Positions 1,527 through 17,180 of a DNA stretch of 64,000 bases are shown one piece after another. The stretch comes from Citricoccus muralis (GTDB lineage: Bacteria > Actinomycetota > Actinomycetes > Actinomycetales > Micrococcaceae): the NCBI RefSeq assembly GCF_029637705.1, contig NZ_CP121252.1, positions 806,001 to 870,000 on the forward strand, given 5' to 3'. The notes under the pieces are model-generated. The model was not told the DNA's origin. It made no database searches and saw only the letters and a list, made by a program, of their open reading frames with translations. Within the stretch, counting starts at the first letter, position 1; every line of letters begins with the position of its first letter. The translations under genes and the position numbers were made by a program.

Positions 1527-1600
1527 CGGGGTGTGGCGCAGCTTGGTAGCGCGCGTCGTTCGGGACGACGAGGCCGCAGGTTCAAATCCTGTCACCCCGA
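1527..1600 (+). tRNA. tRNA-Pro(CGG)
   Basis: A complete cloverleaf is visible. The acceptor arms CGGGGTG and CACCCCG pair, the D loop is CAGCTTGGTAGCG, the anticodon stem-loop is CGTCG-TTCGGGA-CGACG with anticodon CGG, and the T arm contains GGTTCAAATCC, followed by discriminator A. No CCA is encoded here (CTC follows). The displaced chromosomal 3' end at 17148-17172 does continue with CCA, which indicates that the present 3' end came from the integrated element. Confidence 0.95.
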
Positions 1601-1601
1601 C
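1577..1601. repeat. attL: 25-bp direct repeat, left copy
   Basis: This repeat spans the T arm and 3' acceptor strand of tRNA-Pro and the following C. It begins CAGGTTCAAATC and ends CACCCCGAC, and every base matches 17148-17172. It is the junction where the element's own tRNA 3' end restored the gene. Confidence 0.9.
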
Positions 1602-8083: not shown

Positions 8084-8131
8084 ATGCGGGAAACCGTCAA
8101 AGGATTGTTCTTCCTAAAGACCGAGGTGTCT

Positions 8132-9169
8132 ATGAATCACCAGAAGATGAGAAAGCGGCGTGCATCGGCCGCGCTCGGATTGGGGAGCCTCCTCGTGCTC
8201 CTGAGCGGGTGCAGTGCCACGGCAGAGGAAACCAAGCCGGAGTTCTCGCTCGTGGTCGCGCACGAGGTACCGACCGATCACTACTACCACGAGACCTACT
8301 TGTTGTTTGAAGAACTCGTGGAGGAACGGTCGAACGGGAGAATCGACGTCAAGGTCGTTCCCAACGCACTGTTCGGGACTGCTGATGCCTTGACCACTGC
8401 CGTGCAACTCGACAGCATTCAGATGACGGCCACCACCTCTGGGATCCTGGGCCAGTTTTCGCCAGAGCAGAACGTGTGGGATACCCCGTATCTCTTCGAT
8501 GATCCCGATCATGCACACCGGGTGCTTGACGGCGAGTTCGGGCAAGAGGTTCTCGCCGCCCTCGAGCACATCGATCTCGTGGGCCTGGGGTATTTGGAAA
8601 ACGGCGTACGTCATCTCACCACGCGAGGCATCGAGGTCGACGGGCCTGACGACCTGAACGGGGTGAAGATCCGCGTGCAGCCAAACACCCTCCAACTCGA
8701 AGCGTGGGACGCAACGCAGGCGAACCCAACTCCGATGGCTTTCGGTGAGGTCTATACCGGACTGCAGCAGCGCACGATTGACGCACAGGAAAACCCACTG
8801 GCGCTCATCGTCTCCCAGCGCTTCTACGAGGTGCAAGACCGGGTGACATTGACCGCGCACGTTCACTCGACGAGCACGCTCATCCTGTCGAAGATTTTCT
8901 ACGACCGGCTGCCTGAAGATCTGCAGCAAGTTGTGGTCGAGTCCGCGCAGGAGAGTGTCGAGTTCAACCGGATCCGTGCCGCAGAATCAGACATCGAATC
9001 CGCCGAGATCATCAAAGAAGCCGGTGTCACAATTGCCGAAATCTCTGATGAGGGGCGCGAGGAATTCCGGGAAGCAATGCAGGGTGCCGCCCTGCCATAT
9101 CTGCGCGAAACAGTCGGGGATGAGACCGTAGACCACCTTGAGGCGGCAATCGAGGAGGAACGTCAATGA
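8132..9169 (+). CDS. TRAP transporter solute-binding lipoprotein (DctP family)
   Basis: This 345-residue protein starts with a lipoprotein signal peptide: positive MNHQKMRKRR, a hydrophobic core and lipobox LLSGC at about residue 26. It is therefore a membrane-tethered binding protein, as expected in a Gram-positive. The mature part is a DctP/TAXI-type domain with GTADALTTAVQLDSIQM, NGVRHLTTR, the conserved GVKIRVQPN containing the substrate carboxylate-binding Arg, and MAFGEVYTGLQQRTIDAQENP. It delivers a carboxylate to the DctQM permease. The start at 8132 follows GAGGTG. The stop overlaps the dctQ start as ATGA. Confidence 0.92.
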   Translation: MNHQKMRKRRASAALGLGSLLVLLSGCSATAEETKPEFSLVVAHEVPTDHYYHETYLLFEELVEERSNGRIDVKVVPNALFGTADALTTAVQLDSIQMTATTSGILGQFSPEQNVWDTPYLFDDPDHAHRVLDGEFGQEVLAALEHIDLVGLGYLENGVRHLTTRGIEVDGPDDLNGVKIRVQPNTLQLEAWDATQANPTPMAFGEVYTGLQQRTIDAQENPLALIVSQRFYEVQDRVTLTAHVHSTSTLILSKIFYDRLPEDLQQVVVESAQESVEFNRIRAAESDIESAEIIKEAGVTIAEISDEGREEFREAMQGAALPYLRETVGDETVDHLEAAIEEERQ

Positions 9170-9711
9170 CGACGAACACGACAGTAACCAGTCTCAGCCA
9201 GCCCAAAGTCTGGTGGAAACGACACTCGATCGAAGAATACGTCGGCGGCGCGCTGCTCGGTGTCATGGTCGTCGTGATCTTCCTGCAGGTGATCGCAAGA
9301 TACGTCTTCGGTGACTCCTTTTCCTGGAGCGAAGAGCTAGCACGCTACTGCTTCATCTGGCTGATCTACTTCACGCTCGGCGCAGTCGTACTCAAGGCCC
9401 AGCACGTCACGGTCGACGCCGTTATCTCCCGGCTGCCCGCGAACGCTTCACGCTGGTGGGAGCAGGGAATCCAGGTAGTGATCTTCGCCCTCAACGTCCT
9501 CATTCTGATCTACGGGATGATCCTCGTCGTGCGAATGTTCAGCCTCGGGCAGACTTCCTCAGCACTAAACCTGCCGATGTGGGTGGTGTACACCGCGCTG
9601 CCGGTAGGCCTCCTTCTTGCTTCGATCCGAGCCGTGCAGGCGAGCATCGCCATCTGGAAGCCACCGCCCGGCGGGCGAGCGTCCTCGCTAGATGAAGAAA
9701 CGGAGGTGTAA
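9166..9711 (+). CDS. TRAP transporter small membrane subunit (DctQ family)
   Basis: This 181-residue protein has four predicted membrane segments, roughly residues 26-46, 61-80, 102-123 and 140-159, and the conserved family stretch FSWSEELARYCFIWLIYFTLGA. DctQ subunits bridge the binding protein and the large permease. It is coupled to dctP by an ATGA overlap and lies two bases before dctM. The hydrophilic C-tail ends in DEETEV, and its codons supply the ribosome site GGAGGTG of the next gene. Confidence 0.92.
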   Translation: MTTNTTVTSLSQPKVWWKRHSIEEYVGGALLGVMVVVIFLQVIARYVFGDSFSWSEELARYCFIWLIYFTLGAVVLKAQHVTVDAVISRLPANASRWWEQGIQVVIFALNVLILIYGMILVVRMFSLGQTSSALNLPMWVVYTALPVGLLLASIRAVQASIAIWKPPPGGRASSLDEETEV

Positions 9712-9713
9712 TC

Positions 9714-10988
9714 ATGGATGCACTGCTCCTCACCATCGTCATGCTGATCGGCCTGGCCTGCGGAATCCCCGTGGTCTACGCCTTCCTGCTCGCCAGCGCG
9801 GTGACCATCCTCTTCGCCGACACCGGCATCACTTACACCTTCGTCGCTCAGTCACTGACGGTAGCCGGCGATTCCTTCCCGCTAATGGCGATTCCTTTCT
9901 TCATCCTCGCCGGTCTCATAATGGGACGGGGCGGCATATCGAGGCGCCTGTTCGTCCTTGCCAACGCCCTTGTCGGCCACCTACCCGGCGGAATCGGAGT
10001 CGCGGCAGTGTTGACGGCAATGTTTTTCTCCGCGATCTCAGGATCAGGGCTTGCGACGGTCGCCGCCGTAGGCAGCATCATGATCCCAGAGATGGTCAAG
10101 TCCGGCTACACTCGGAAATACTCGGCCGCGCTGATCGCAGCAGCCGGAACCATCGGTGTCGTCCTGCCGCCGAGCATTCCTCTCGTGCTCTTCGGAGTCG
10201 TGACCGGCACCAGCATCGGAGATCTCTTCATCGCAGCCGTGATTCCGGGTATCCTCATGGGACTCGTGCTCATGGGCTGGGTCATCGTCCACGCGAAACG
10301 CCACCACATCCGCGGGGTCGAACGGAGTACCTGGCGCGAGCGTGCTCAGGCACTCTGGGGTTCCATTGGCGGACTCCTAATGCCAGTAATCATTCTTGGT
10401 GGCATTTACGGTGGCGTTTTCACCCCGACCGAGGCGGCTGTCATCGCCGTCGTCTATGGACTGGTCGTCAGCCTCGGCTTCTATCGTGAAACCACCCTTC
10501 GCGAGATCCTTAACACATTCGGAAGCGCAGCTATCTCGACGAGTGCCCTCATGGTGATGGTGACCGCGGCCGTCGTATTCGGACACTTCCTTACGATCGA
10601 GGACGTGCCTGCGACGATCGTTTCCGCAATGAGTGGCATCAGCGATAACCCAGTAGTGATCGTGCTCCTTGCGAACCTGCTGCTACTTCTGATTGGCACG
10701 TTCATGGATACGATTCCAGCGATTCTCCTCACCTCACCGGTACTCATGCCGGTGCTCGCTGAAGCAGGGCTTGATCCTATCCATATCGGTATCATCGTCG
10801 TTGTCCAGATCTCAATTGGCTTCGTGACGCCACCGCTCGGCCCGAACGTGTTCATCGCATCGAACACTGCGAAGGTGAGCAGCGAGCAGACCATGGTCGC
10901 GATCATGCCTGGAATCGCGCTACTGCTCGGCGTCGCCCTTCTCGTGAGCTTCGTGCCCTGGCTCTCGATGGCCCTTATCGCCCCGTAG
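9714..10988 (+). CDS. TRAP transporter large permease (DctM family)
   Basis: This 424-residue polytopic membrane protein of the ion-transporter superfamily has about a dozen hydrophobic segments. Family signatures visible include PLMAIPFFILAG, MFFSAISGSGLATVAAVG, the VLPPSIPLVLFGVVTGTSIGDLF motif and the second-repeat equivalents NLLLLLIGTFMDTIPAILL and TPPLGPNVFI. It forms the sodium-driven channel of the TRAP system with DctQ and takes substrate from DctP. The length is usual for the family and no defect is seen. GGAGGTG precedes the ATG. Confidence 0.93.
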   Translation: MDALLLTIVMLIGLACGIPVVYAFLLASAVTILFADTGITYTFVAQSLTVAGDSFPLMAIPFFILAGLIMGRGGISRRLFVLANALVGHLPGGIGVAAVLTAMFFSAISGSGLATVAAVGSIMIPEMVKSGYTRKYSAALIAAAGTIGVVLPPSIPLVLFGVVTGTSIGDLFIAAVIPGILMGLVLMGWVIVHAKRHHIRGVERSTWRERAQALWGSIGGLLMPVIILGGIYGGVFTPTEAAVIAVVYGLVVSLGFYRETTLREILNTFGSAAISTSALMVMVTAAVVFGHFLTIEDVPATIVSAMSGISDNPVVIVLLANLLLLLIGTFMDTIPAILLTSPVLMPVLAEAGLDPIHIGIIVVVQISIGFVTPPLGPNVFIASNTAKVSSEQTMVAIMPGIALLLGVALLVSFVPWLSMALIAP

Positions 10989-11187
10989 ATGGGCAAGTGA
11001 CGCCGAGAAAGTGTCCGAATCAGCCGGCCCTTTCCCGGCGTCGCTCAGGCAAAGCAGGCAAGTTTCTCTTGGTGGAGAAGCGATGATCGAAACAGCAAAG
11101 GATCTCAACACATGCAGTATCGGTGTCGGGAGAGTGGGGAACGTGCCGGGAGTTCGTTCGAGAACAATGAAAAGAGGCTGATCGAAA

Positions 11188-12900
11188 ATGCATGATGACA
11201 GACCCCGAAAGTCTGAAAAGACACTGAAAGCGTTCGTCGACATTCTGGGGACGAGCCAAGTTCTGACTTCCCCTCAAGCGACGGCCCCGTATGCGCGTGG
11301 GAGCCGTTTCGGGGCCGGGAAGGTGCTCGCGGTGCTCCGCCCTGGCACTCTCGTTGAGATGTGGCTAGCGTTGCAGGTCTGTGTCGATAACGATCTCATC
11401 GTCATCCCTCAGGCCGCCAACACCGGCCTGACCGGAGGCTCTGGCCCGGGGGACCAGGACTACGACCGCGAGGTGGTGATCATCTCGACGATGCGCATCA
11501 ATCAGATCCACGTGATCAACGATGCGCGTGAGGCGGTGTGCCTGGCCGGGGCCAGGCTGTACGAGCTCGAGGAGGCTCTGGCACCCCACGGACGGGAGCC
11601 GCATTCGGTGATCGGCTCTACTTCTATCGGGGCGTCCGTGGTCGGTGGGCTCGCCAACAACTCGGGAGGCAGCCAGGTCCGTAAAGGCCCCGCCTTTACG
11701 GAGTACGCGATCTATGCTCGTGTGAATGAGGACAACAGGGTCGAACTCGTCAACCATCTCGGCATCGAACTGGGAGACGATCCTGCGCAGGTGCTCGATA
11801 GGCTGCAGCGCGGCGACTGGGATGCGGCCGACGTCACTCCTCCTCCGGCCGATTCCCTCGACACGGAGTACGGGGAGCATGTACGTCAGATCGTCGGCAC
11901 ACCTGCGCGGTACAACGCCGACCCGAAGTTCCTCTTCGAGTCGTCCGGGTGCGCTGGCAAGCTCATGGTGTTCGCAGTGCGCACGCGAACCTTTCCGAAG
12001 GATTGGCGCACCACGACCTTCTACATCGGCACGAACGATCCGTCCGAGCTCGAGGATCTGCGGCGCGTCGTTCTCACCGCCGACCGACAGCTGCCCATCT
12101 CGGGCGAGTACTTCGACCGCGCGACCTTCGACCTAGCCGAGAAATACGGCAAGGACACCTTCGTCGGTTTGAAACACTGGGGAAACCAGCAGGTGCGACG
12201 AATGTTCGCCCTCAAGAGCTGGGCGAACGGGGTCTTCGCGAAGCTCTTCCCGTTCCTAGGTCAGACATTCGCCGACACGATCTCCCAGAAGGCCTTCGCG
12301 TTGCTGCCCCAGCAGCTGCCGAAGCGGATGCTCGACTACAGGGACCGCTTCGAGCATCATTTGATCATGGAGGTCGGGGACGCCCAGAAAACGGAGACCG
12401 AGAAATTTCTGGCCTCGTTCTTCGCCGAATCCGGGAGGGCTGGCGCGTTCTTCGTCTGCACCGACGAAGAAGCGCAGAGTGCCATGCTGCAGCGCTTCGG
12501 CGCGGCCAGCGCGATCGCGAGATACTTCAACCTCTACCGCAAGAACGTGGGCGGCATGGTGACCTTCGACGTGGCGCTTCGGCGGGACGACGAGGACTGG
12601 CTCGAGACACTACCACCCGAGATCGCCGATAAGCTCGAGGTGAGCGCGTACTACGGCCACTTCTTCTGCCATGTCCTTCACCAGAATCATGTGGCGAAGA
12701 AAGGTGTCGACTTGGTCGAGCTCAAAAAGCAGATGACGAAACTGCTCGAAGATCGCGGAGCGGCGATCCCTGCTGAGCACAACTACGGCCGATTGTACGA
12801 GGCGCCTCCCGCGCTGGTGGAGCACTACAAGCGGCTCGACCCGTGCAACGTCTTCAACGCCGGAGTGGGTAATACGTCGCCGCGCAAGAACTGGGGATAA
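11188..12900 (+). CDS. dld: Quinone-dependent D-lactate dehydrogenase
   Basis: This 570-residue FAD enzyme is close in length and layout to E. coli and Corynebacterium Dld. The PCMH FAD domain is N-terminal (IPQAANTGLTGGSGP, then IGSTSIGASVVGGLANNSGG). The D-lactate-dehydrogenase membrane-binding domain follows (HHLIMEVGD and the surrounding basic, hydrophobic stretch). The C-terminal cap has YYGHFFCHVLHQNHVAKKG and AEHNYGRLYEAP. It oxidises D-lactate to pyruvate and reduces membrane quinone. It follows the TRAP genes by 199 bp on the same strand, which supports uptake and oxidation of D-lactate or a related hydroxy acid by this island. Confidence 0.93.
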   Translation: MHDDRPRKSEKTLKAFVDILGTSQVLTSPQATAPYARGSRFGAGKVLAVLRPGTLVEMWLALQVCVDNDLIVIPQAANTGLTGGSGPGDQDYDREVVIISTMRINQIHVINDAREAVCLAGARLYELEEALAPHGREPHSVIGSTSIGASVVGGLANNSGGSQVRKGPAFTEYAIYARVNEDNRVELVNHLGIELGDDPAQVLDRLQRGDWDAADVTPPPADSLDTEYGEHVRQIVGTPARYNADPKFLFESSGCAGKLMVFAVRTRTFPKDWRTTTFYIGTNDPSELEDLRRVVLTADRQLPISGEYFDRATFDLAEKYGKDTFVGLKHWGNQQVRRMFALKSWANGVFAKLFPFLGQTFADTISQKAFALLPQQLPKRMLDYRDRFEHHLIMEVGDAQKTETEKFLASFFAESGRAGAFFVCTDEEAQSAMLQRFGAASAIARYFNLYRKNVGGMVTFDVALRRDDEDWLETLPPEIADKLEVSAYYGHFFCHVLHQNHVAKKGVDLVELKKQMTKLLEDRGAAIPAEHNYGRLYEAPPALVEHYKRLDPCNVFNAGVGNTSPRKNWG

Positions 12901-13059
12901 CCCTGCGGGAGAACAGACGTAGACCGGAGGTCGCTGGCCGAGGAGAGGCGCATAGCGCGGGCTCGTTCCACATTACGCGGGCATGGCCTATCGCGAGGAA
13001 CAGCGATTGCTCCAAGCAAATGGGCTGTGAAGTGAGTTCTCGCCCGTCTGCTCTGATCT

Positions 13060-13412
13060 TGGCTGATGCGTCGGCCCAGCCGCCCTATGATCTGCTGCGC
13101 GTTCTTCGAGGTGAATGCGGTGTAGGGAACCTCCGCGACCTCGGCGCGGGAGATCAGGAGACCGGTCTCCTTGTCGCGAGTGGTGCCGGGGTACTCGATC
13201 GGTGTCCACTCCGTATCGGGAATCTGCTCGATCGCGCGCCTGATCGAGGGAATCATCCGAACGGTCACCGAGACCGCCGCGCCCTGCTGCGTGGCGGCGG
13301 TAACGACCGCATGCGAGTAGTACGCCGAGTCTGCCCGAACCAGCACCCGGCGGGCGCTGCCGCCATTCATACGGCGCAGCTGGGCGATGGCATCACCGAC
13401 GACACGTTTCGC
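13060..13412 (-). pseudogene. IS1380-family transposase fragment
   Basis: Read on the minus strand, the stretch encodes KRVVGDAIAQLRRMN and then VLVRADSAYYSHAVV, the DDE-transposase strand with its catalytic Asp in the IS1380 family. VSVTVRMIPSIRRAI, TPIEYP and SRAEVAEVPYTAFTSK follow. The N-terminal half is missing because an ISL3 left end abuts it at 13413. Similarity fades near 13060, so the C-terminal part with the last acidic residue is lost as well. The exact lower border is uncertain. Confidence 0.75.
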
Positions 13413-13578
13413 GGCTCTTCCCAGATGAGGGTGTAGGTCGGCCGGGCGCGTCGGTCCGCAGATAGACGTCGAGGTCTCCCGACGATGGAGGTTCCTACGC
13501 CATCCATCCGAAAGACCTCGACGTGTCCGACGCTACCCCGCCGGCCGGCTTCGGCCGCCCTGACCTGACCGCCTTCGC
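13413..13578 (+). mobile_element. Truncated ISL3-type left end
   Basis: These 166 bp align without gaps to the left end of the ISL3 element at 15691-15856. They are identical over roughly the last 130 bases and include the terminal inverted repeat (GGCTCTTCCCAGATGAGGG) and the transposase start. The copy ends abruptly inside the first 20 codons. It sits in the IS1380 fragment. The base run CGTTTC precedes both copies. Confidence 0.85.
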
Positions 13579-13807
13579 GTCTCATCCCAATCGACCCTGA
13601 TCGAGTCTGCTGACCCCCTCGACGAGAACGCAGCGACATCACGGCCGCCCAACCCCGACCGTCCGGGAAGTCGGGACACGTCACATGGCCTGTGCTGCGG
13701 GTGTGTCGAGTGGGTCGTCCAGGGGGTGACGCAGGAGCGTCGACGCGACGTGCTGAGAGGTGGTTCCAGTCGAGCGCTAGGACACCGGCTACAGGCATGG
13801 CGATAGG
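13579..13807. other. Stretch without a recognisable gene
   Basis: No open frame here has a recognisable domain. CTCATCCCAATCG (13581-13593) is the reverse complement of the ISL3 right end at 17112-17126, which suggests another IS terminus or rearrangement debris. The rest shows nothing I can name. Confidence 0.4.
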
Positions 13808-14749
13808 TCAGGAATGGCGTCGCTCCCTGCGCAGGAGGGAGCGGAGAGTCTCGGCGTTCGCGTAGCCGACCCGTCGCGCGATCTCGGCGGAGGTGAGGTC
13901 CGTGGTTGCTGAGAGGTGCCGAGCTCGTTCGATGCGAAGCCGTTGGACGAAGCCGAGCGGAGTGAGGTTGAGCGCCGCACGGACTCGTCGTTCGAGGGTG
14001 CGCCGGCTGGTGCCGAGCGACTGCGCGACGAAGGCGAGGTTGAACGGTTCGTCCAGGCGGGCGCGCACGAAGCGTTCGAAGTCGACGACGATAGGGTCCT
14101 CGTGCTGGAGATGTTCGTAGGCGACGAAGGCGGCCTGCGACGGGCGCTCGTCGATGATGAGGAGCTTGGCGACATGTTGGGCCAGGTCGGGGCTGATCGA
14201 TCGCACGAGTGAGAGCGCGAGGTCGATGTGGGCGAACGCGGCGCCGGCGGTGACGAGGTTCCCGTCGGCCACGACCATGGTGTCGAGATCGAGGGCGACG
14301 GTCGGATAGCGCTTCAGGAACTCCGGACCCAGGAACCAGCTGGTCGTCGCCCGCCGATGATGCATCCGTCCGGTCTCGGCGACAGCGAACACGCCGGTGC
14401 ACGCCGCGGCGATCCGGGTGGTCGCCTCGTCGAGGCGCCCGAGCGAGGCGATGACCGAACGAGTATCTCGGCTCTGGAGGGCGTCGTTGGTAGCGGCGGC
14501 CGTAAGGGTTCCAAGCGCAGGGACGACGACGACGTCGAACTCTCCGGACTCCGACAGCGGGTGGTCCACCGACAGGGTCATCGATGACGTCGTGGTCACT
14601 CGCCGTTTCGGTCCGAGGATGGCGAGTTCGATCGGGTCGATCCGCGGGTCGACATCGCCGCGGGCTCCGTCGGCCACCCGCACGATGTCGATGATCGACG
14701 CGATAGCCGAACCGAAGCAGCCGTCGATCGCGATTAGTCCGATACGCAT
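13808..14749 (-). CDS. GlxA-type AraC regulator (DJ-1/PfpI-like plus HTH_18)
   Basis: This 313-residue protein has an N-terminal DJ-1/PfpI (GATase1-like) domain at about residues 1-175. FDVVVVPALGTL is followed by RIAAACTGVFAVAETG, whose Cys is at the nucleophile-elbow position. The C-terminal AraC domain, at about 215-310, has two helix-turn-helix units (LAFVAQSLGTSRRTLERRV and SAEIARRVGYANAETLRSLLRR). I place the start at the ATG at 14749, because the further upstream part of the frame lacks a ribosome site. It is divergent from the small monooxygenase gene and may regulate it. Nothing indicates its ligand. Confidence 0.85.
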   Translation of the reverse strand: MRIGLIAIDGCFGSAIASIIDIVRVADGARGDVDPRIDPIELAILGPKRRVTTTSSMTLSVDHPLSESGEFDVVVVPALGTLTAAATNDALQSRDTRSVIASLGRLDEATTRIAAACTGVFAVAETGRMHHRRATTSWFLGPEFLKRYPTVALDLDTMVVADGNLVTAGAAFAHIDLALSLVRSISPDLAQHVAKLLIIDERPSQAAFVAYEHLQHEDPIVVDFERFVRARLDEPFNLAFVAQSLGTSRRTLERRVRAALNLTPLGFVQRLRIERARHLSATTDLTSAEIARRVGYANAETLRSLLRRERRHS

Positions 14750-14856
14750 GACGTAAACAATAGCATTACTGCCGTATACGCCACTCCCCACGGGCCCTCG
14801 CTCGTCATAGGCTGAACCCGTACCACTAAGAACACCGATTTCAAGGAGAGTCTCTC

Positions 14857-15168
14857 ATGTCAACACCCGCATCACTTCCCTATGCTTTCGTCGCCAAGAT
14901 CGTCGCGGCCGATGGACAGCAGGACGCGCTTGCCGATCTGCTTGCCGGCGCTGTCGCGCTCGCCAACGAAGAAGTAGGAACGATTGTCTGGTTCGCGGTC
15001 AGGACCGACGCCGACACCTTCTGGATCTTCGATGCATTCCCCGACGAGGCCGCTCGCGACGCCCACGCCAACGGCGCCATCGTCGCAGCTCTGACGGCTA
15101 ACCAGCACCTGCTCGGCGCAGCACCCGAGATCCTGGCGGCCGACGTTCTCGCGTCCAAGCTTCCGTAG
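14857..15168 (+). CDS. Small antibiotic-biosynthesis-monooxygenase (ABM) fold protein
   Basis: This 103-residue protein has the ferredoxin-like ABM pattern. The strand FVAKIVAADGQQDALADLLAGAVALANEE is followed by TIVWFAVRTDADTFWIFDAFPDEAARDAHANGAI. AAALTANQHLLG-type helix ends and DVLASKLP complete it. Members include quinol monooxygenases (YgiN-like) and heme-degrading or stress proteins. The function cannot be fixed. AAGGAGA lies about ten bases before the ATG. It is divergent from the GlxA-type regulator with 107 bp between them. Confidence 0.75.
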   Translation: MSTPASLPYAFVAKIVAADGQQDALADLLAGAVALANEEVGTIVWFAVRTDADTFWIFDAFPDEAARDAHANGAIVAALTANQHLLGAAPEILAADVLASKLP

Positions 15169-15380
15169 TCCGCCAACGCACGAGACGATCGCGCCCCGCC
15201 GAGCCGTCGCCAGGTCACGACGCAACGCCCGGTTGCGTTGCCGAGCGGTGCGAGGCCTATCGGCACACGGACAGGATGCCGGCCGCGAGCGCTGAGCCGG
15301 CGAGGGGTCCGTCGCAGAGGAGAGCGACGTCGGTGTCGGGCAGAGCCGTGAGGCCAGCGCATCGCGCGACCACCAGAACC

Positions 15381-15422
15381 GAACCGCCCCTGACCTGCGG
15401 AAACGCAGGGCAGGGGCGGTTC
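15381..15422. terminator. Long hairpin beside the tRNA remnant
   Basis: GAACCGCCCCTG (15381-15392) pairs perfectly with CAGGGGCGGTTC (15411-15422). The inner bases ACCTGCG and CGCAGGG extend the stem with one mismatch around a GAAA loop. On the minus strand it follows directly after the tRNA-like remnant, as a native tRNA terminator would. Confidence 0.6.
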
Positions 15423-15425
15423 GCC

Positions 15426-15461
15426 GGAGCCGCCTTTCGGAATCGAACCGACGACCTCATC
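15426..15461 (-). pseudogene. 3' fragment of a tRNA-Thr-like gene
   Basis: The minus strand reads GGTCGTCGGTTCGATTCC and then an acceptor-like AGGCGGCTCC, matching the T arm and 3' acceptor strand of actinobacterial tRNA-Thr. One T-stem closing pair is broken and no 5' half or anticodon arm is present upstream. It is a remnant, perhaps a fossil attachment site. The 15169-15690 interval otherwise shows no gene. Confidence 0.6.
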
Positions 15462-15690
15462 ACGTCGGCTTTGCGTCTATCGCTTGATGCGCCCACTGGG
15501 CGAACGAGCCGCTGACCCGCGCAAACGCCGAGCGTGGGGGACGCCGCCATCCGGTGGTGACCGACGACGACCGACCAGTACCGACCGTTTCACCGGAGCT
15601 TGCGGCGGCGTCGAAGCCGAGCAAGCTCCATTCCTTTAGCTCACCGCTCCCTCCTCCTCGCCGGCCCCGTCGTCGTCGAAGTCGTTTCAG

Positions 15691-17128
15691 GGGTCTTCTC
15701 AGATGACGGTGTAGGTCGGCCGAGCGCGTCGGTCCGCAGATAGACGTCGAGGTCTCCCGACGATGGAGGTTCCTACGCCATCCATCCGAAAGACCTCGAC
15801 GTGTCCGACGCTACCCCGCCGGCCGGCTTCGGCCGCCCTGACCTGACCGCCTTCGCTCGACTCGACGGCCTCGGTCTGAGCGTGACCGGACAACGACTTG
15901 AACCGGAGCGTGCGGTCCTCGCGTGCCGCGTGGTGGAACCAGATCAGTGGTGCCGACGGTGCGGCAGCGAAGGCGCTGCTCGTGACACCGTGATCCGGCG
16001 GTTGGCCCACGAGCCGCTGGGCTGGCGACCGACCGTGCTGGAAGTTGTAGTGCGCCGCTACCGCTGTGCCGACTGCGGACACGTGTGGCGCCAAGACACC
16101 AGCGCCGCGGCGGAGCCACGTGCGAAGCTCTCGCGCACCGGGCTGCGGTGGGCGCTGGAAGGGATCGTGGTCGCACACCTCACCGTCGCCCGTGTCGCCG
16201 AGGGACTCGGGGTCGCGTGGGACACCGCCCACAACGCGGTCCTGGCTGAAGACAAGCGGCTGCTGATCAACGACCCCACGCGGTTTGAGGGCGTGAAGGT
16301 CGTTGGCGTCGATGAGCACGTCTGGCGCCACACCAGGCGTGGCGCAAGTACGTTACCGTGATCATCGACCTCACCCCGGTCCGCGATGGCGCCGGCCCAG
16401 CAAGACTGCTGGACATGGTCGATGGCCGGTCGAAGGCGGCGTTCAAGACCTGGCTCGCCGACCGCGACGACGCCTTCCGTGACGCGGTCGAGGTGGTCGC
16501 GATGGACGGCTTCACCGGGTTCAAGACCGCCGCTGCAGAGGAGATCCCGGACGCGGTCACGGTGATGGATCCCTTCCACGTCGTGCGCCTGGCCGGTGAC
16601 GCCCTCGACAGGTGCCGGCGCCGGGTCCAACTCGCGATCCACGGGCACCGTGGGTTCAGGGACGACCCGCTCTACAAGTCGCGGCGCACGCTGCACACCG
16701 GCGCGGACCTGCTCACCGACAAGCAGAGCGACAGGCTACGCGCGCTGTTCGTTGATGACGCTCACGTCGAGGTCGAGGCTACCTGGGGTGTCTACCAGCG
16801 CATGATCGCCGCCTATCGCCACGAGGACCGGCAACGTGGCCGCGAGCTCATGGAGAAGCTGATCACCGACCTCAGCGCCGGCGTCCCCAAGGTGCTCACC
16901 GAGCTCACCACCCTGGGCCGGACCCTGAAGAAGCGAGCCGCTGACGTGCTCGCCGACTTCGAACGACCCGGCACCAGCAACGGGCCGACCGAGGCGCTCA
17001 ACGGACGGCTCGAACACCTGCGCGGCTCCGCACTCGGGTTCCGCAACCTGACCAACTACATCGCCCGAAGCCTGCTCGAGACCGGCGGCTTCAGACCCCA
17101 ACTCCTACACCCCCGATTGGGATGAGCC
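15691..17128 (+). mobile_element. ISL3-family insertion sequence
   Basis: The left terminus (15691, GGGTCTTCTCAGATGACGG) and the reverse complement of the right terminus (17128, GGCTCATCCCAATCGGGGG) share the outer GG-TC-TC bases and an inner GGTGTAGG, the expected imperfect inverted repeats. The single transposase gene fills the element. No 8-bp target duplication is visible (CGTTTCAG on the left, TTTTTAAA on the right), which points to later recombination. The right end lies 19 bp from the island border. Confidence 0.85.
15801..17125 (+). pseudogene. ISL3 transposase with a frameshift
   Basis: The N-terminal part (residues 1-180) has the zinc-ribbon CRRCG and YRCADCGHVW and the start of the DDE domain, GVDEHVWRHTRRG. 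The rest follows in the next frame from about 16345: KYVTVIIDLTPVRDG, AMDGFTGFKTAAAEEIPDAVTVMDPFHVV and the terminal GPTEALNGRLEHLRGSALGF. The two pieces join as one normal ISL3 protein if a single base is missing in GGCGCAAG near 16344. The start codon is GTG. The lesion inactivates the gene unless it is a sequencing error or programmed frameshifting. Confidence 0.85.
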
Positions 17129-17147
17129 TTTTTAAAGGACGGGTCCC

Positions 17148-17180
<33 letters not shown>

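Follow-up and report, generated by a model that had tools for sequence, protein, structure and literature searches.

A tRNA-Thr(CGT) 3' end and its terminator most probably carried as cargo by a 3.7-kb ISL3-type transposon in Citricoccus muralis

The stretch at 15381-15461 of the analysed window (64,000 nucleotides of the Citricoccus muralis contig NZ_CP121252.1, positions 806,001 to 870,000) is most probably the 3' end of a tRNA-Thr(CGT) gene together with its terminator, both carried as cargo by a 3.7-kb ISL3-type transposon. We put the probability of this reading at about 0.88. A tRNA 3' end with a terminator usually suggests that an element once integrated at this very place, and a sequence-only reading of this DNA had taken the piece as an old attR of a second element integrated in a tRNA-Pro island. 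Because the piece lies inside a mobile unit that is surrounded by target duplications in other genomes, it would have reached the tRNA-Pro island by transposition.

The tRNA piece and its terminator

The piece runs on the minus strand from 15462 to 15426 and comprises the 3' strand of the anticodon stem, the variable loop, the T arm, the acceptor strand, and the CC. In the comparison with tRNA-Thr(CGT) genes of related genomes, 34 of the 37 bases are identical to intact genes, and intact genes with the reference 37-base 3' part were found in six of the 396 genomes, all actinobacteria of the order. Within the window the reference 3' part fits only here, with three mismatches, against nine mismatches at the second-best place, which is the real tRNA-Thr(TGT) gene, and a chance match can thus be ruled out. 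The tRNA-Thr-like T arm and 3' acceptor strand, which had been proposed from the sequence alone, are therefore present. ARAGORN did not call a tRNA at 15426-15462, and no Rfam tRNA match above the threshold was obtained at the piece in the window. For copy L041, which is less mutated, the Rfam tRNA model gives 17.1 bits at a cut-off of 29.

No significant 5' half was found, which agrees with the earlier claim. The match of the upstream 52 bases to six tRNA-Thr genes is weak: it is equalled in 0.3% to 44% of mononucleotide shuffles, and against one of the six genes 230 of 9840 52-mers from the window do as well as the upstream bases. A complete tRNA with a long anticodon loop, to whose D arm and acceptor the upstream bases can be aligned, was considered and rejected because this alignment is not significant. 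The piece is cut at the anticodon arm, which, like the T arm, is a place where the 3' fragment of an integrase island is expected to break.

Behind the 3' end, the bases 15380-15423 of the minus strand fold into a tRNA-type terminator hairpin of 13 bp, a mismatch, and 6 bp, whose loop is inverted compared to the other aligned copies. Comparable hairpins are found in other genomes directly behind tRNA-Phe (L063) and tRNA-Val (L064), and also behind tRNA-Thr (L071, L072, L080). The hairpin that the sequence-only reading had placed after the tRNA 3' end thus resembles those that terminate tRNA genes elsewhere, and the tRNA-Thr 3' end and a native-type terminator stand together.

The 3.7-kb transposon and its target duplications

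The whole unit spans 3716 bp (13413-17128) and consists of an insertion sequence of about 1.44 kb, the cargo, and a second copy of the insertion-sequence end. The transposase gene (15801-17125, plus strand) contains the Pfam domain DDE_Tnp_ISL3, as expected for an ISL3 transposon, and is split by a frameshift into two overlapping reading frames, with a one-base deletion compared to a plasmid copy. The inner copy of the insertion-sequence end (15691-15856) is a direct repeat, with 97% identity, of the 166 bases that form the outer end on the cargo side (13413-13578). Between these copies lie a gene for a DJ-1/PfpI and AraC-type helix-turn-helix regulator (AraC/GlxA-like; domains by Pfam; 13808-14791, minus strand), a gene with an ABM domain (antibiotic biosynthesis monooxygenase; Pfam ABM; 14857-15168, plus strand), the hairpin and the tRNA piece, and a spacer of 228 bases (15463-15690) that separates the piece from the inner end. 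Homology between copies stops at 13412/13413 and at about 17128, and the outer ends of the unit are inverted repeats, as in ISL3 transposons.

Insertion of ISL3 elements duplicates 8 bp of the target. The duplications were evaluated in 16 units that contain the piece and both outer ends, the window copy included. Ten of these are flanked by a perfect 8-bp duplication (L068, L069, L101, L105, L107, L117, L122, L133, L137, L143), as is typical of an ISL3-type transposon with passenger genes, and L157 has seven of eight bases duplicated. The flanking octamers of L066, L116, L129, L158, and the window copy agree at one to three of eight bases, the window copy having three. Among the inner insertion-sequence pairs listed, none is surrounded by a perfect 8-bp duplication. 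Therefore, the whole unit, insertion sequence plus cargo, is what moves. The transposase would act on the adjacent outer end (17128) and on the extra copy of the other end (13413), so that insertion sequence and cargo would be moved jointly. That they do move jointly is shown by the shared ends and the target duplications in other genomes, and the piece would have entered the tRNA-Pro island together with the transposon. Since the window copy has no matching target duplication, its own insertion is not directly readable; one of its flanks may have been rearranged later. As a separate observation, a fragment of another transposase (12825-13370; DDE_Tnp_1_4, below the cut-off) abuts the outer transposon end and may explain the missing duplication.

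Distribution in genomes and plasmids

The 513 bases at 15170-15682, with the piece inside, served as query against 396 genomes of the order, among them the own genome. Some match was obtained in 327 of the 396 genomes; apart from the long matches, those listed mostly cover the tRNA or hairpin part, which is short. Matches that are long (E-value of 7.8e-73 or better) are present in 20 genomes besides the own one, and these genomes belong to six families. In 17 of the 395 other genomes the match extends over the full or nearly full length with 86-96% identity. The matches in G391 and G257 are shorter and cover part of the piece, and a shorter match in G289 does not contain it. G358 has a copy of the cargo without the tRNA piece (L062). 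In G029 (L061), only 114 bases from spacer and piece are present, adjoined by another insertion-sequence end and by a gene of the chromosome, and the rest of the unit is absent, so that piece and unit do not strictly go together in every case. Because the same junction occurs in L112 and L131 together with the remaining cargo, L061 would most simply be a remnant.

Seventeen plasmid records match the 513 bases, and 14 of these, from Rhodococcus, Tsukamurella, and Dietzia, cover at least 80% of the query. Six of the 17 records were examined for their annotation: in three (L065, L068, L069), a transposase of the ISPfr2 family of ISL3 elements adjoins the piece. In two further stretches the transposase is not annotated beside the piece, yet the DNA match extends into the transposase region, and in one the match ends before this region. 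All six contain the ABM gene and the gene of the helix-turn-helix regulator on the other side of the piece.

A pattern spanning the spacer-tRNA junction, which by itself selects copies that retain this junction, was found in 89 stretches of genome_contigs. The titles of 80 of these name at least 35 genera. The search for elements carrying the same 3' end, which had been suggested together with the attR claim, thus revealed stretches that all (89 of 89) overlap the transposon unit. Parts of both the ABM gene and the transposase were present in 50, only the ABM gene in 27, only the transposase in eight, and neither in four, and these numbers are affected by the ends of contigs or stretches, which cut some of the copies. 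The longest match to the unit (L107) has 97.4% identity over 3718 bases. A phage as carrier was rejected because 140 bases had no match in phages and the junction pattern had none in viral_contigs. Several copies, among them L053, L054, L055, L066, L069, L122, and L137, contain about 360 extra bases between the positions corresponding to 15209 and 15210, which are absent from the window copy.

Relation to known systems

The unit resembles ISPfr2-family ISL3 insertion sequences in the DDE_Tnp_ISL3 domain of the window copy and in the annotation of the transposase in the three plasmid copies ("ISL3-like element ISPfr2 family"), but adds a second end and cargo. ISPfr2 has been reported in Brevibacterium aurantiacum, and the available part of that report does not mention cargo (PMC6579920). 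According to the accessible parts of the respective sources, ISPst2a/b are ISL3 elements that carry passenger genes (PMC6305408), and a mobile insertion cassette is bounded by ISPfr11 ends (PMC2909200). Passenger genes combined with insertion-sequence ends are thus common to these systems and the present unit. In contrast to what those parts describe, the cargo is a different one here, the inner end is retained, and a tRNA piece is included. The class of anticodon-type attR breaks has been described for islands in tRNA genes (Islander; PMC4383910). As far as the accessible text of that source goes, the layout of the fragment and the anticodon-type break are the same as in islands with a displaced 3' fragment, whereas the present replicon has no matching intact tRNA and the fragment moves by transposition. 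Literature searches listed no description of the unit or of tRNA pieces in such transposons.

What looks like a local scar has here travelled with a transposon through at least 35 named genera of actinobacteria and onto plasmids. Mapping of islands based on tRNA fragments could therefore be misled in hosts whose tRNA-Thr(CGT) resembles the carried piece. It also exemplifies clearly how an insertion sequence acquired mobile cargo: an additional copy of its own end was retained in the unit.

The tRNA-Pro island and the origin of the truncation

The tRNA-Pro island is real. Its left edge is the tRNA-Pro(CGG) gene found by ARAGORN (1527-1601, plus strand), and its right edge is a copy of the 3' end of this gene (17138-17172, plus strand; 35 bases, 91% identity). 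Just inside the tRNA-Pro edge, a short reading frame at 2036-2431 lies beside an excisionase-like one and resembles, by eye, a shortened start of a tyrosine integrase. The island cargo at 8084-12900 includes a DctP solute-binding protein, followed by reading frames that look like those of a TRAP transporter by eye, and a D-lactate dehydrogenase (Pfam Lact-deh-memb).

The break of the tRNA piece is located beside the anticodon loop, the 3' end is complete, and the terminator follows, which is the layout of an anticodon-type attR. This layout would also be left if a second element had once integrated at a tRNA-Thr gene of this chromosome and its attR had come to lie inside the later tRNA-Pro island. 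However, the host genome contains three tRNA-Thr genes (TGT, GGT, and CGT), and the piece is derived from none of them: in local alignments the best match is to TGT (26 of 31 bases), followed by CGT (25 of 31), while only 21 bases could be aligned to GGT. The host's own genes were thus rejected as source, and no intact tRNA gene from which the piece would derive was found in the replicon. In addition, the piece is present at a single place in the host genome, and the same piece with the same flanks is part of transposon units in many genera. Such an integration in this chromosome can thus be practically dismissed. Of the earlier attR claim, the layout with the 3' end, the terminator, and the cut in the anticodon arm has survived, but not the integration at this place; if there was an integration, it would have happened before the capture and in another genome. 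The suggestion that the island was assembled by at least two integrations at different tRNA genes has lost its basis as well: the piece came as transposon cargo and gives no evidence for it.

The insertion sequence itself did not make the break in copies of the main form, because its inner end is 228 bases away. In six copies (L098, L100, L104, L113, L150, L153) an insertion-sequence end immediately precedes the piece, and we read these ends as later insertions. We rather lean towards an origin of the truncation as attR of an element that integrated in the tRNA-Thr gene of another actinobacterium, an earlier host. The insertion sequence would then have captured the tRNA scar and, with it, the ABM and regulator genes beside it. 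It is also possible, but somewhat doubtful, that the tRNA was truncated before the capture by a plain deletion or recombination and not by a site-specific integration. Such a deletion would agree with the spacer, which contains no convincing repeats, and with the few loci in which an integrase or an att partner was looked for and not found. In an island with an attR, an integrase is expected between tRNA and fragment, but this genome offers no matching partner tRNA and hence no such interval. No integrase is annotated in the six plasmid stretches, and none was recognised by eye next to L109, L118, and L149, three copies whose 5' side is broken. A plain deletion would, however, have had to break the gene beside the anticodon loop and to keep everything to the 3' end, as in anticodon-type att sites. 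Among the 396 genomes, no tRNA-Thr gene that could be the donor, having T at position 42 like the carried piece, was detected at up to one mismatch, and six of the genomes have the ordinary stem. Among the matches listed, the flank beyond the hairpin is found outside the unit only in L062 and in stretches of at most 40 bases close to the cargo gene. At an E-value of 1e-60, 149 genomes contain no homologue of the regulator beyond two transposon copies and the own one. No ABM gene was found beside tRNA-Thr genes within about 300 bases on each side (16 loci) or within 1500 bases (six loci).

Variation among copies and possible function

The copies found by similarity were aligned (28 rows), and all 26 rows that cover tRNA position 42 have T there, a change from the ordinary tRNA-Thr stem. 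All copies therefore probably go back to one ancestral piece. The T in 84 copies retrieved with the junction pattern was left out of this argument, as the pattern itself requires it. The two further changes of the window copy are shared by the Micropruina copies L097 and L168. In this alignment, departures from the commonest base amount to 9 of 1056 cells in the tRNA part, 35 of 3632 in the spacer, 36 of 3621 in the stretch beyond the hairpin, 16 of 1175 in the upstream 47 bases that adjoin the piece, and 29 of 1009 in the hairpin, which is the most variable of the five segments. Among the 87 copies judged (two further stretches are cut off), 78 keep the tRNA part and the hairpin, five keep most of the tRNA part and have lost the hairpin, and four have lost both. 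Selection on the tRNA part is thus not apparent: its variation in the 28 rows is similar to that of the flanks, and several copies have a damaged tRNA part. Judged by this pattern, the piece looks like a passive passenger with no evident function. In L128, L146, and L155 the T arm and the acceptor strand are changed differently, as if they had been swapped with another tRNA gene.

Piece and hairpin might still be a working part of the transposon, either as a terminator that stops read-through from the ABM gene into the transposase or as a regulatory RNA. The piece is located between two genes that are read in the same direction, the 141 bases holding piece and hairpin have a fold z-score of -3.5, and the hairpin arms change together in some copies (e.g. 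L138, L104). However, such matched changes could stem from function or from palindrome repair during replication, which would give matching arms too. Given also that the hairpin varies most, that its commonest forms have one or two mismatches in the arms, and that nine of the 87 judged copies lack it, we regard a working part as unlikely and keep to the passive passenger. It is highly improbable, in our opinion, that plasmids and chromosomes receive with the transposon a portable tRNA-Thr attachment site. If so, integrases that target tRNA-Thr(CGT) could land on the piece and spare the real tRNA of the host.
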